A model generated the notes under the pieces. That model did not search any database. It was not told the origin of the DNA and worked only from the letters and a program-made list of their open reading frames with translations. Shown piece by piece: positions 23,857 to 28,569 of a stretch of 41,023 nucleotides of DNA; the stretch's first letter is position 1; each line of letters starts with the position of its first letter. The position numbers were made by a program, and so were the translations under genes. Origin of the DNA: Dehalococcoidia bacterium (GTDB taxonomy: Bacteria; Chloroflexota; Dehalococcoidia; Dehalococcoidales; SURF-40); NCBI GenBank assembly GCA_003599745.1, contig QZJL01000026.1, positions 1 through 41,023 on the forward strand, given 5' to 3'.

Positions 23857-24489
23857 GTGACCGTGCCGCAACCGGTAATTACCATCATTGACTACGGCGC
23901 CAGCAACCTGCGCAGCGTGACCAACGCTATCCGCCGTCTCGGCTACCAGCCGTTGGTAACAGGTTCGGCCAAAGAGATTGCCGGGGCTGATGCCGTGATA
24001 TTGCCCGGCGTCGGCGCCGCGCCGGATACGATGGTCAGCCTTGATAAACTGGGGCTGTTGGCGCCCATCAAAGAGTACATCGCGGCGGGGCGGCCATTTC
24101 TGGGAGTCTGCGTCGGTCTCCAGGTGCTTTTCACCAGCACCGAGGAAGGCGGCGGCGCACCCTGCCTGGACATCATCCCCGGACGGGTGAAAAAGCTGTC
24201 GGGCGACCTCAAGATTCCCCATATGGGCTGGAACCAGGTAAAGCAGCTGGTGAGCCACCCGCTCTTCCGGGGAGTTCCCCAGACCGCCAATTTTTACTTC
24301 GTGCACAGTTACTATGCCGACCCGGCTGACCGCTCGGTGGTCATCGGCGCTACCGACTACGGCCAGGCGTTCGCCAGCGTCATTGCCCGGGGAAGCATGG
24401 TCGCCACCCAGTTTCACCCGGAAAAGAGCGGGGAGAGCGGCCTGAAAATCTACGATAACTTTATCAGGATGGCCGGGGCAGGGAAATAA
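23857..24489 (+). CDS. hisH: imidazole glycerol phosphate synthase, glutaminase subunit
   Basis: A 210-aa class I glutamine amidotransferase that supplies ammonia to HisF in histidine synthesis. The nucleophile elbow is GVCVGLQ (Cys), and the catalytic His and Glu are in [12 protein letters not shown]. The opening [12 protein letters not shown] and LPGVGA are HisH-specific. The start is GTG 23857 with a GGAG upstream. It ends 2 nt before hisF, so the two subunits are co-translated. The rest of the his pathway is not in the window. Confidence 0.95.
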
Positions 24490-24491
24490 AG

Positions 24492-25259
24492 ATGCTCACC
24501 AAGCGAATCATACCCTGTCTCGATGTTAAAGACGGGAGGGTGGTCAAAGGCACCAGCTTCGCCAGGCTGCGCGACGCCGGCGACCCGGTGGCGCTTGCCA
24601 GCTTCTACTACCGGGAGGGCGCCGACGAACTGGTCTTTCTGGACATCACTGCCACGCCGGAAGGCCGCGATACCATGGTGGAAGTGGTCGAGCGCATCTC
24701 GGAGAAGGTGTTTATGCCGCTCACCGTGGGCGGCGGGCTGCGCGCCGTGAGCGATATGCGGCGGCTGCTTATGGCCGGGGCCGACAAAGTCTCCATCAAC
24801 AGCGCCGCAGTCAGCACGCCGGAGCTCATCAGCGAAGGCGCCGCCAAGTTCGGCAGTCAGTGCATCGTAGTCGCCATTGACGCCAAGCGCCTCGAAAATT
24901 CGAAAGAACCGCGCTGGGAGGTCTACATCCACAGCGGCCAGAAACCCACCGGTAAAGATGCCCTGGCCTGGGCGGAGCGGGCGGTAATGCTGGGCGCCGG
25001 TGAAATCCTGCTCACCAGCATTGACGCCGACGGCCACAAGGCGGGCTACGACCTGGAACTAACCCGCATCATCTCGGAAGCGGTCAGCGTGCCGGTCATC
25101 GCCAGCGGCGGCGCGGGCACGCCGGAAGACCTCTACATGGCATTGACCGAGGGCAAGGCCGACGCCGTGCTCGCCGCCAGCATCTTCCACTACGGTACCC
25201 ACCCCGTCGGCGAAATTAAGAAATATCTCAAGCAAAAAGGCATCGCCGTCAGAGTTTAG
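24492..25259 (+). CDS. hisF: imidazole glycerol phosphate synthase, cyclase subunit
   Basis: A 255-aa (beta/alpha)8 barrel that closes the imidazole ring using ammonia from HisH. The catalytic Asp residues are in [12 protein letters not shown] (near the N-terminus) and VVAIDAKR. The phosphate sites are VGGGLR and [12 protein letters not shown]. Full length for the family. ATG 24492 follows the hisH stop by 2 nt. A regulator gene follows 15 nt downstream on the same strand, which ties histidine synthesis and nitrogen control into one transcript. Confidence 0.96.
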
Positions 25260-25274
25260 CAGAGAGGGATATAG

Positions 25275-25943
25275 TTGTTCCGCATCATCATCCTCAGTGA
25301 CGAAAAGCAGGCTACCACCGAAATCGAAAAGGCGCTTGCCGGACGTGGTTTCATCTGCCTTACCGCTACGAACGAAAGCCAAATCGCGCCGCCGGGCAGC
25401 CGCCCGCCCGACCTGGTACTGCTCAACACCAACGGGCCGACCAGCTACGCCCGCTTTCGCGAGCTGTCGGCGGCCATCAAGCGGGAAAAGAAACTGCCGG
25501 TGATGGTCGCCCTGGGCAAAGAGGGGCTGGAGAGTTTCGGCTTAGAACACGCGGTTGACGATTTCGTCACCCGTCCTTTCGACCCGGCGGAACTGGCGCT
25601 GCGCGCCAGCCGCCTGATAAGGCAGAGGGAGACCCACGACGGCGGCCGGCCAATCACATCGGGCGAGCTGGTCATTGACCCATCAAGGTGCGAGGTCCGG
25701 CTTGGCGCAGACCGGGTAACACTGACCTTCAAGGAATACCAGCTTCTCAAGTTCCTGGCCACTCACCCGGGCCGGGTATTTGGCCGCGAAGCCCTGCTGG
25801 ACCGGGTCTGGGGCAGTGACTACTACGGGGGCGACCGCACCGTGGACGTTCACGTCAGAAGACTCAGGCTCAAGCTCGAAGAAAAGGGCGGGCAGTTCAT
25901 CGAGACCGTGAGGAACATCGGCTACCGCTTCCGCGACCGGTAG
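25275..25943 (+). CDS. OmpR-family regulator with degenerate receiver (GlnR-like)
   Basis: A 222-aa protein: an N-terminal receiver-like domain (1-105) and a C-terminal winged helix (130-222). The latter ends in VDVHVRRLRLKLEE and IGYRF, typical of OmpR/PhoB proteins. The receiver keeps the acidic pair (D9, E10), but the phosphorylation site is Asn (N51 in DLVLLNTN) and the conserved Lys is Arg (R100 in TRPF). Normal phosphotransfer should therefore not work, and no histidine kinase is adjacent. Orphan OmpR-type regulators with atypical receivers next to nitrogen genes recall actinobacterial GlnR. The 11-bp repeats before glnA support that reading. TTG start at 25275 with GAGAGGGA upstream. 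Confidence 0.82.
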   Translation: MFRIIILSDEKQATTEIEKALAGRGFICLTATNESQIAPPGSRPPDLVLLNTNGPTSYARFRELSAAIKREKKLPVMVALGKEGLESFGLEHAVDDFVTRPFDPAELALRASRLIRQRETHDGGRPITSGELVIDPSRCEVRLGADRVTLTFKEYQLLKFLATHPGRVFGREALLDRVWGSDYYGGDRTVDVHVRRLRLKLEEKGGQFIETVRNIGYRFRDR

Positions 25944-25967
25944 CCGTCGCTGCCCAAAACCCCTTTT

Positions 25968-26016
25968 GTAACAAGAAATTAACCCGCCGTTAACATGCCG
26001 GAAACATTACCGTACT
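25968..26016 (+). promoter_or_regulatory. five 11-bp direct repeats, OmpR/GlnR-type operator before glnA
   Basis: Pentamers recur at exactly 11-bp steps: GTAAC (25968), TTAAC (25979), TTAAC (25990), GAAAC (26001) and GTACT (26012), each followed by 6 nt. This is the layout of GlnR sites in actinobacteria (GTnAC-n6-GAAAC-n6) and, more broadly, of OmpR/PhoB-family tandem boxes. The array ends one base before the -35 element of the glnA promoter, the position of an activator that touches RNA polymerase. Confidence 0.65.
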
Positions 26017-26017
26017 A

Positions 26018-26046
26018 TTGTTAAGCTATCGGTAATCCAATATACT
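26018..26046 (+). promoter_or_regulatory. sigma70-like glnA promoter
   Basis: TTGTTA (26018-26023), 17-bp spacer, TATACT (26041-26046), 58 nt before the glnA ATG. The -35 is imperfect, as expected for an activated promoter, and abuts the direct-repeat array. Confidence 0.6.
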
Positions 26047-26104
26047 TGTAAAAGCCATAAAAGCCCCGACACGGATAACCGGATAAAAATAAGGAGAGCA
26101 AAAT

Positions 26105-27448
26105 ATGACTGACAAAAGTCGCCAGGAAGCCAAGGATTATGTCCTGCGGACGGTCAAGGAGCGCAACGTCAAGTTCCTGAGGCTGTGGTTCACCGACATC
26201 CTGGGGATACTCAAGAGCTTCGCCATCACCCGCGAGGAACTGGAAGGCGCTCTGGAGGAAGGGATGGGTTTCGACGGTTCCTCCATCGAGGGTTTTGCCC
26301 GCATCGACGAAAGCGACATGGTGGCCCTCCCTGACCCGACCACCTTCCAGATAATGACCTGGAAGCCCCGTGAAGAAACACTGGTCGCCCGGATGTTCTG
26401 TGACGTCCTGCGCCCCGGCGGCGAGCCTTTCGACGGCGACCCCAGGTACGTCCTCAAGCGAAACCTGAAAAAGGCCAAAGACCTGGGTTACACCTTTTAC
26501 GTCGGCCCGGAACTGGAATATTTCTATTTCAAAAATGACAAAAACACCGAGGTACTGGACAACGCCGGTTACTTCGACTGGACACCGATGGACGCCGCCA
26601 ACAAGACCCGTAAGGAAACCGTGCTCGCCCTCGAGGATATGGGCATCGGCATCGAATACTCCCACCACGAGGTTGCCGCCAGCCAGCACGAAATTGACAT
26701 GAGGTACACCGACGCCCTGACGATGGCCGATAACGTGATGACCTACCGGCTGGTGGTGAAAGAGGTCGCCCAGGAAAACGGCTACTACGCCACGTTTATG
26801 CCCAAGCCAATCTTCGGAAGCAACGGCAGCGGTATGCACGTTCACCAGTCGCTTTTCAGAGGCAACTCGAATGCCTTTTTCGACCCAAAGGACAAGTATC
26901 ATCTTTCAAAAATTGCTAAAGCCTACATCGCCGGCCTGCTGAAACACGCCCCGGAAATCACCGCCATCACCAGTCAGTGGGTCAATTCCTACAAGCGCCT
27001 GGTGCCGGGCTACGAAGCGCCGGTTTACCTGTCCTGGGCGCGGCGCAATCGCTCCGACCTCATCCGCGTCCCCGAATACCGGCCTGGCAGAGAAAAAGCC
27101 ACCCGTATCGAGTACCGCTCGCCCGACCCGGCCTGCAACCCCTACCTGGTCTTCAGCGTAATGCTGGCCGCCGGCCTCTACGGCATCGAGAAAGGTCTAG
27201 AACCGCCGACGCCGGTCGAGGAAAATGTCTACGAAATGACCGATAAAGAAAGAAAGGCACGGGGCATCGGCACCCTGCCGGCCAGCCTGGAAGAAGCCAT
27301 CCTGCTCACCGAGAAAAGCAAGCTGGTGCGCGAGGCTCTCGGCGAACACGTCTTCAATGCCTTTATAGAGAACAAGAAAATCGAGTGGGACCAGTATCGC
27401 ATCCAGGTGACGGAATACGAAATCAAAAAGTATCTGCCCCTGCTCTAG
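26105..27448 (+). CDS. glnA: glutamine synthetase, type I
   Basis: A 447-aa type I glutamine synthetase, joining ammonia to glutamate with ATP and forming dodecamers. Signatures are MGFDGSSIEGF, the Mg-binding YVGPELEYFYF, ATP-site FGSNGSGMHVHQS and RIEYRSPDPACNPYL. The length, without the ~25-residue insertion, favours the I-alpha type, normally controlled by feedback and binding proteins rather than adenylylation; a Tyr is nonetheless present in NVYEMT. AAGGAGAG lies before the ATG. It has its own promoter and repeat-array operator. It is flanked by the OmpR-type regulator upstream and NrpR downstream. Confidence 0.96.
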   Translation: MTDKSRQEAKDYVLRTVKERNVKFLRLWFTDILGILKSFAITREELEGALEEGMGFDGSSIEGFARIDESDMVALPDPTTFQIMTWKPREETLVARMFCDVLRPGGEPFDGDPRYVLKRNLKKAKDLGYTFYVGPELEYFYFKNDKNTEVLDNAGYFDWTPMDAANKTRKETVLALEDMGIGIEYSHHEVAASQHEIDMRYTDALTMADNVMTYRLVVKEVAQENGYYATFMPKPIFGSNGSGMHVHQSLFRGNSNAFFDPKDKYHLSKIAKAYIAGLLKHAPEITAITSQWVNSYKRLVPGYEAPVYLSWARRNRSDLIRVPEYRPGREKATRIEYRSPDPACNPYLVFSVMLAAGLYGIEKGLEPPTPVEENVYEMTDKERKARGIGTLPASLEEAILLTEKSKLVREALGEHVFNAFIENKKIEWDQYRIQVTEYEIKKYLPLL

Positions 27449-27552: not shown

Positions 27553-28569
27553 GTGGTGCAGGCCGCCGGCAGCGATACCGAGCGAAAAATCATCGCCATC
27601 TTAAAAGTCCTGAGCGAGTCTTCGGAGCCGCTCGGCTCAATCACCATCGCCCGCGAACTGGAGCGCCACGGTATTTCGCTTTCCGAGCGGGCTATCCGCT
27701 ACCACCTCAAAATCACCGACGAGCGTGGTTACACCCAGCCGATGGGACGCGACGGCCGTATGCTGACGCCACAGGGCATCGAAGAACTCAGGATGGCGCT
27801 GGCCCCGGAAAAGCTGAACTTCATCAACGAAAAGCTGGAACTCCTGGCCTTCCAGACAAGCTTCGACCCGCAAAAGCGCTCGGGGCTTGTACCAATCAAC
27901 ACCACGCTCATTGACGGAAAACTTTTCCCGGCCGCCCTGGACGTGATGGGCGAGGTCTTCGACGCCGGCATCTGCGTGAGCGAACTCGTAGCCACCGCCG
28001 GAGAAGGCGAAAAACTCGGCTCAGTGGTGGTGCCGCCGGGTAAAATCGGCCTGGCGACCGTCTGCGGCGCGGTCATCAATGGCTTCCTGCTCAAATGCGG
28101 GGTGCCGGTCGAGTCGCGTTTCGGCGGTGTCCTTGAAATTCGTAACCACCAGCCCCGGCGGTTCGTGGCGGTCATCAGTTACGGCGGCACCTCGGTTGAC
28201 CCGTCCGAGCAGTTTATCCGGGCACATATGACCAGTGTCTCGGAAATCACCCGGAGCGGCAACGGCAAAATGCTGGCTAATTTCCGGGAACTGCCCGCTC
28301 CCGCACGGGCAGCCGTCGTCGAGAAAATCGCGCTGCTCAAAGAAGCCGGCATCGGCGGTGTCTATGCTCTGGGCAACACCAGCGAGCCGGTCTGCCAGCT
28401 GGCGGTCGGCTTAAACCGCATCGGCATGGTGCTGGTGGGGGGACTCAATCCCCTGGCCGCCGTCTTCGAGCGTGGTATCACCGTGGACAACTTCGCCGAG
28501 AGTGGCCTGATTGACTACCGCGAGCTGGTAAACTTCCGCGAACTGCCGAAGACACAGAACCTCAAGTAA
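27553..28569 (+). CDS. nrpR: NrpR-family nitrogen regulator
   Basis: A 338-aa protein with an N-terminal winged helix (ERKIIAILKVLSES, then LSERAIRYHL and GYTQPMGRDGRMLT) and one NrpR regulatory domain. The latter is seen as FDPQKRSGLVPIN, GKIGLATVCGAVINGFLLKCG, and YGGTSVDPSEQFI with MTSV. NrpR is the 2-oxoglutarate-responsive repressor of nitrogen genes in methanogens such as Methanococcus. Bacterial homologues are less studied. It sits 104 nt downstream of glnA, strengthening a nitrogen role. GTG start at 27553 with CGGAGGGA upstream; GTG 27556 is an alternative. The single-domain form implies dimerisation for full function. Confidence 0.88.
   Translation: MVQAAGSDTERKIIAILKVLSESSEPLGSITIARELERHGISLSERAIRYHLKITDERGYTQPMGRDGRMLTPQGIEELRMALAPEKLNFINEKLELLAFQTSFDPQKRSGLVPINTTLIDGKLFPAALDVMGEVFDAGICVSELVATAGEGEKLGSVVVPPGKIGLATVCGAVINGFLLKCGVPVESRFGGVLEIRNHQPRRFVAVISYGGTSVDPSEQFIRAHMTSVSEITRSGNGKMLANFRELPAPARAAVVEKIALLKEAGIGGVYALGNTSEPVCQLAVGLNRIGMVLVGGLNPLAAVFERGITVDNFAESGLIDYRELVNFRELPKTQNLK

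Follow-up and report, generated by a model that had tools for sequence, protein, structure and literature searches.

A putative GlnR-like operator array upstream of glnA in a Dehalococcoidia genome, and a candidate nitrogen regulon in its relatives

The closest described counterpart of the locus considered here is actinobacterial GlnR (M. tuberculosis, 8hih; Saccharopolyspora erythraea, 8hig and 8hml; S. coelicolor; M. smegmatis), an orphan OmpR-type nitrogen regulator with a degenerate phosphorylation pocket. Its boxes are given as gTnAc-n6-GaAAc in S. coelicolor, arranged a-b-a-b, and as t/gTAAC-n6-Gc/aAAC in M. smegmatis; in the complex with RNA polymerase four DNA-binding domains lie head to tail, and the receiver homodimer uses Asp50-Arg52-Thr9 contacts (PMC10704036). 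A genome-wide study in M. smegmatis describes the motif as AC/T-n9-AC and Gn2AC-n6-GnAACA, with binding abolished by changing the motif adenines, and actinobacterial GlnR acts as both activator and repressor (PMC3662644). Bacillus GlnR/TnrA share a name and a physiological role with it but differ in family, being MerR proteins (PMC10704036). The GlnR literature found in our search concerns actinomycetes, with nothing relevant on GlnR in Chloroflexi, and for Dehalococcoidia the same search brought up no transcriptional regulator of nitrogen. This class includes organohalide respirers used in bioremediation; in D. mccartyi 195, the nif operon and the ammonium-transporter and P-II genes have been reported, from array work, as markers of nitrogen status (PMC3462421). 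A candidate nitrogen regulator for the group, with its DNA code and regulon, can now likely be named, and GlnR relatives outside Actinobacteria may be of use in studying how nitrogen is sensed through a degenerate receiver domain.

In the window (the whole 41-kb stretch of Dehalococcoidia DNA that was analysed), an array of short direct repeats lies between glnA and the gene for an OmpR-type regulator. The preferred reading, with a probability of roughly 0.86, is that the array is the operator of this adjacent GlnR-like orphan regulator, which would activate glnA, and that the same regulator and box make up a nitrogen regulon throughout the lineage. It is supported by the conservation of the boxes, their geometry, their recurrence at nitrogen genes, the kinship of the protein to GlnR and the degeneration of its receiver pocket. 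The features of the locus are:

23857..24489, + strand: hisH, upstream in the same gene run
24492..25259, + strand: hisF, ending 15 bp before the regulator gene
25275..25943, + strand: OmpR-type regulator gene starting at TTG; its GlnR-like product of 222 aa joins a degenerate receiver to a winged-helix DNA-binding domain
25968..25972, + strand: box 1, GTAAC, from the sequence and the relatives' array
25979..25983, + strand: box 2, TTAAC, from the sequence and the relatives' array
25990..25994, + strand: box 3, TTAAC (GTAAT or GTAAC in most relatives)
26001..26005, + strand: box 4, GAAAC, next base A (GAAACA), the promoter-proximal box
26012..26016, + strand: fifth pentamer, GTACT, within the n10 spacer of the relatives and unconserved
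26016..26021, + strand: TATTGT, inferred -10 hexamer, 10 bp past box 4, at the position of the relatives' TAnnnT (by homology)
26018..26046, + strand: TTGTTA-17-TATACT promoter-like match, a possible second promoter, off the conserved position
26105..27448, + strand: glnA, type I glutamine synthetase, presumed target
27553..28569, + strand: NrpR-domain regulator gene (HTH_12 + NRD1_2), 104 bp past glnA, possible second nitrogen regulator

Read directly from the window sequence, the five pentamers of the original prediction start at 25968, 25979, 25990, 26001 and 26012, each step exactly 11 bp. All are present where they had been placed, but the fifth is unconserved among the relatives' sites and was rejected as part of the operator: the conserved unit of the putative operator is four boxes, not five. 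Pentamers of a and b type spaced 11 bp apart, often four in number, are shared with GlnR, as is a nitrogen-gene regulon, here predicted from sites, that includes glnA.

The host order is inferred to be Dehalococcoidales, the related contigs that carry names being Dehalococcoidia or Dehalococcoidales. In the intergenic DNA that follows the regulator gene in same-order relatives, a 54-bp site recurs, with the consensus KTAAC-n6-TTAAC-n6-GTAAT-n6-GAAACA-n10-TAnnnT. Conservation of the 11-bp repeats in related genomes, proposed earlier as a check, is indeed found, and at period 11 only: 34 locus strands carry four-box arrays above threshold at this period, and none at any other period from 8 to 15. 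Scanning both strands of about 0.97 Mb with an iterated matrix yields 50 sites of at least 18 bits, where the reversed control yields 1. Of these 50 sites, 46 precede amtB, glnB or glnA, a count biased towards nitrogen genes by the choice of loci around the regulator, and the others fall at the ends of contigs or ahead of a small ORF. In some genomes (G037, G058 and G097, for example) the regulator is present with no site directly after it, although sites can occur elsewhere in those genomes.

In PhoB promoters the box ends 10 bp from the -10, and the activator replaces the -35. By analogy, the spacing from box to -10 in the relatives would correspond to PhoB-type promoter geometry; a position fixed 10 bp ahead of the -10 distinguishes these sites from those of GlnR. 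The window -10 is most likely TATTGT at 26016-26021, weaker than its counterparts in the relatives, and not TATACT at 26041. The original prediction had drawn the promoter as TTGTTA (26018-26023), 17 bp and TATACT (26041-26046), one base beyond the fifth pentamer: the letters are there, but their position is wrong relative to TAnnnT in the relatives, and the match was rejected as a conserved promoter. The alternative that survives best keeps the same regulator and takes this match as the promoter, with the regulator acting from further upstream (class I) or as a repressor. Its hexamers score 9/12, TATACT is nearer to consensus than TATTGT, and both modes of action are on record for actinobacterial GlnR (PMC3662644); against this, 38 of the 49 box-only arrays have TAnnnT at +10 past box 4, while none of the other offsets between 0 and 24 accounts for more than 6, which leaves the alternative unlikely. 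The period and offset comparisons were both made without using the -10. The inverted repeat ATTACCG-n17-CGGTAAT at 26006-26036 was also discarded, since its left arm falls in the spacer that varies among relatives.

On the preferred reading, that of an operator serving the TATTGT promoter, four winged-helix domains would bind head to tail to boxes 1-4, one per 11-bp helical turn, and the last copy, 10 bp ahead of the -10, would lie over the -35 zone as in PhoB-type promoters. RNA polymerase would thereby be recruited, and glnA activated rather than repressed and transcribed under nitrogen shortage, which would be the signal. The degenerate receiver probably provides a surface for oligomerisation and signal reception rather than a phosphorylation switch, and the regulator would then work independently of phosphorylation.

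How far does this arrangement extend beyond glnA? A sequence-only model of 31 sites, run over 101 genomes, gives 60 matches at E <= 1e-4, 55 of them before nitrogen genes or a second regulator copy by our assignment, a few of these assignments resting on the coordinates of glnA rather than on the sequence of the locus. The other five precede a P-type ATPase gene, an unassigned 454-aa gene and a small ORF beside the regulator, or fall at a contig end or where there is no clear array. The site before the 454-aa gene (L119, G097:C5:29454) is strong and the gene has no NCBIfam match; it may be an unexpected member of the regulon. Sites precede amtB, glnB and glnA outside the regulator cluster as well, and amtB-glnB(-glnA), not glnA alone, is the chief target in most relatives. 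Recurrence at other nitrogen genes, also proposed earlier as a check, is found in the relatives (amtB, glnB, glnA, nif), and the window genome has a site at glnA only; glnA stands as the presumed target there.

The lineage-wide regulon would comprise amtB, glnB and glnA, with nif and nitrite-reductase genes added in some genomes; nif genes among the predicted targets are a further difference from GlnR. A site precedes nifH in G063 (the gene scores above its NCBIfam cut-off), a nifB-like gene in G083 (309.5 bits, cut-off 343.7), a homocitrate-synthase-like gene in G012 (well under its cut-off) and, in G058 and G066, a P-II-like gene accompanied by ferredoxin-nitrite reductase (481 bits, cut-off 594). 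At L120 and L132 the order is site, P-II-like gene, ferredoxin-nitrite reductase gene, which points to control of nitrite assimilation. G083 has weaker sites too, ahead of nifH, of modA and of a gene for a second GlnR-like regulator that itself precedes modABC. This second regulator (L220:8642-9361, - strand) sits in the nif region with an 11-bp array of its own, and is possibly a nif-dedicated paralog.

The protein itself was predicted to be of the OmpR family with Asn at the phospho-Asp position, and so it proves: Pfam Trans_reg_C matches at E 1.6e-27, and residue 51 is Asn. No Pfam receiver domain matches the regulator ORF; the AlphaFold model (mean pLDDT 88) has both a receiver fold and a winged helix. 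Across 39 orthologs the phospho-Asp column reads E 20, D 7, A 6, T 2, L 2, N 1 and H 1, the Thr/Ser position of the pocket is mostly Leu, and the Lys position is variable. Kinship to GlnR, also part of the original prediction, is supported by PDB matches, the tree, the fit of boxes 3-4 to the published motif and the degeneration of the receiver across orthologs. Compared by sequence with the PDB, the regulator matches 8hig best (120.8 bits; titled as S. erythraea GlnR), next 8hih (108.7; the M. tuberculosis initiation complex with GlnR), then 8hml and RegX3 (100.6); with a profile of the 39 orthologs the scores are 174 for 8hig, 165 for 8hih and 162 bits for RegX3. Two same-order paralogs, taken as controls, match MtrA/RegX3 best in the PDB, not GlnR. 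GlnR is the nearest solved homolog by sequence, the DNA-binding domain being 55% identical in structural alignment. A fold search with the full-length model does not separate GlnR from other OmpR proteins because the angle between the domains is uncertain (pTM 0.57), and only the DNA-binding domain alone is informative.

A 65-row tree places the regulators together with two GlnR sequences and wider relatives in a single clade (bootstrap 100, SH-aLRT 99), set apart from 23 other regulators; the GlnR rows, taken from PDB alignments, span only about residues 32-219, the wider relatives were picked by similarity to the window-type regulator, and the bootstrap had not fully settled. The clade also takes in the second regulator of G083, first labelled a paralog. 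Asn51 and Asn53 stand where actinobacterial GlnR has the Asp50/Arg52 pair, in a column that varies among orthologs. Because the Asp50/Arg52 contacts are not kept, the protein is not filed as GlnR proper; a GlnR-like sister lineage, which would work like GlnR, is the better description. Its host also lies outside Actinobacteria.

Another possibility, though a rather improbable one, is that a different OmpR-family protein, such as a PhoP/PhoB-type phosphate regulator, binds the array and the adjacent gene is a mere neighbour. Tandem 11-bp direct repeats are general to OmpR/PhoB proteins, PhoP/PhoB boxes included, the window genome has other OmpR-type proteins (9 matches), and PhoB is the best NCBIfam profile for the regulator; its 136.8 bits are nevertheless far under the equivalog cut-off of 296.2, and PhoB membership was rejected. 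Shared with PhoB/PhoP-type activators are the repeats and the 10 bp from box end to -10, whereas the box letters differ, the targets are nitrogen rather than phosphate genes (none of the identified targets is a phosphate gene) and most orthologs have no phosphorylatable Asp. The site also adjoins the regulator gene again and again, it is this regulator and not its paralogs that lies nearest to GlnR, and boxes 3-4 of the relatives, GTAA[TC]-n6-GAAACA, fit the published M. smegmatis GlnR motif.

The genomic setting differs from that of GlnR in that the regulator gene is embedded in a glutamate-synthase/hisF run. Close orthologs occur in 48 of the 101 same-order genomes, separated from paralogs by a gap in score (at least 142.6 bits against at most 125.9). 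Their usual layout is oxidoreductase, gltB1, hisF, gltB2, gltB3 and regulator, followed by amtB, glnB, glnA and nadE, with asnB or nrpR joining in some relatives; gene labels come from clustering and reading of the sequences unless a family search named the gene. The regulator usually closes the glutamate-synthase/hisF run directly before amtB-glnB-glnA, its neighbours being hisF/glt genes on one side and amtB/glnB/glnA on the other. The gene clusters identified around the regulator include no histidine kinase gene, which marks it as an orphan. Inside the glutamate synthase run, hisF lies apart from other his genes at L033, L041, L048-L050, L052, L060 and others. The window has a reduced form, hisH, hisF and regulator followed by glnA and nrpR, with 2 bp between hisH and hisF, 15 bp between hisF and the regulator gene, and 161 bp from there to the start of glnA; the glutamate synthase genes of the window's genome are on a different contig.

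NrpR operators are palindromic. NrpR, the archaeal nitrogen repressor, shares the role of nitrogen regulator and has a homolog beside glnA here, and it could be this homolog that mainly controls glnA, with the array as a relic. In the window an nrpR-like gene follows glnA, several relatives have one close to the regulator, and neither amtB nor the P-II gene (glnB) was found in the window's draft genome, which is 78% complete, the two being either lost or absent from the assembly. NrpR belongs to another protein family, however, which does not explain 11-bp direct repeats, and no archaeal NrpR operator (GGAA-n6-TTCC or GGTA-n6-TACC) was seen by eye upstream of glnA (25940-26104); on both grounds it is considered an unlikely binder of the array. 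The array occurs independently of nrpR in relatives, and the four boxes in the window are intact, 25968-26021 scoring 36.6 bits with a matrix of the relatives' sites that leaves the window out. A relic is, if anything, slightly less probable than binding by another OmpR protein. That the boxes are a chance or low-complexity repeat, being short and AT-rich, is scarcely credible given their specificity for period 11 and their conservation over dozens of genera.

By its score the array is more than a chance repeat. Against 36.6 bits for the array, 5000 Markov resamples of the intergenic stretch peak at 16.3, and non-overlapping sites in the rest of the window, both strands, reach at most 4.0 (the array's own overlapping registers aside). 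When up to 3 mismatches are allowed, the four-box pattern has 1 match in the 1.56-Mb assembly, as does a control read backwards. A model of 31 relatives' sites, the window site among them, gives E 5.6e-8 for the glnA site in its own genome and no better than 0.2 for all other matches; the weak ones on C54 (E 0.24) and C71 (E 0.69) show no convincing array. With glnA carrying the sole significant site, either the regulon is very small in this genome or the incomplete MAG is missing amtB and the P-II gene. The presence of nrpR-like genes near the regulator in several relatives suggests two nitrogen regulators in one lineage.

Among 151 Chloroflexota genomes sampled, regulator scores of at least 202 bits are confined to the window's order and class, with at most 183 elsewhere. 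More remote relatives of the regulator are encoded next to glnA, glnB or nadE in Omnitrophota, Armatimonadota, other Chloroflexota and one MAG whose title gives Actinomycetota; MAG record titles may be wrong. GlnR-type control may well be an old cross-phylum system rather than an actinobacterial invention: OmpR-type regulators with degenerate receivers and the same 11-bp GTAAC/GAAAC code would accompany glnA, glnB or nadE in Dehalococcoidia and other Chloroflexota as well as in Armatimonadota and Omnitrophota, and Dehalococcoides nitrogen fixation would also be governed through a second, nif-linked paralog. This proposal stands at slightly better than even. Dehalococcoidia-type loci occur in MAGs titled Deltaproteobacteria (L134, L146, L152, L177), titles that are probably wrong. 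Strong 11-bp GTAAC/GAAAC arrays accompany distant GlnR-like regulators at L179, L189, L184, L181 and L182, whose lineages are Armatimonadota, Omnitrophota and a distant Chloroflexota lineage.
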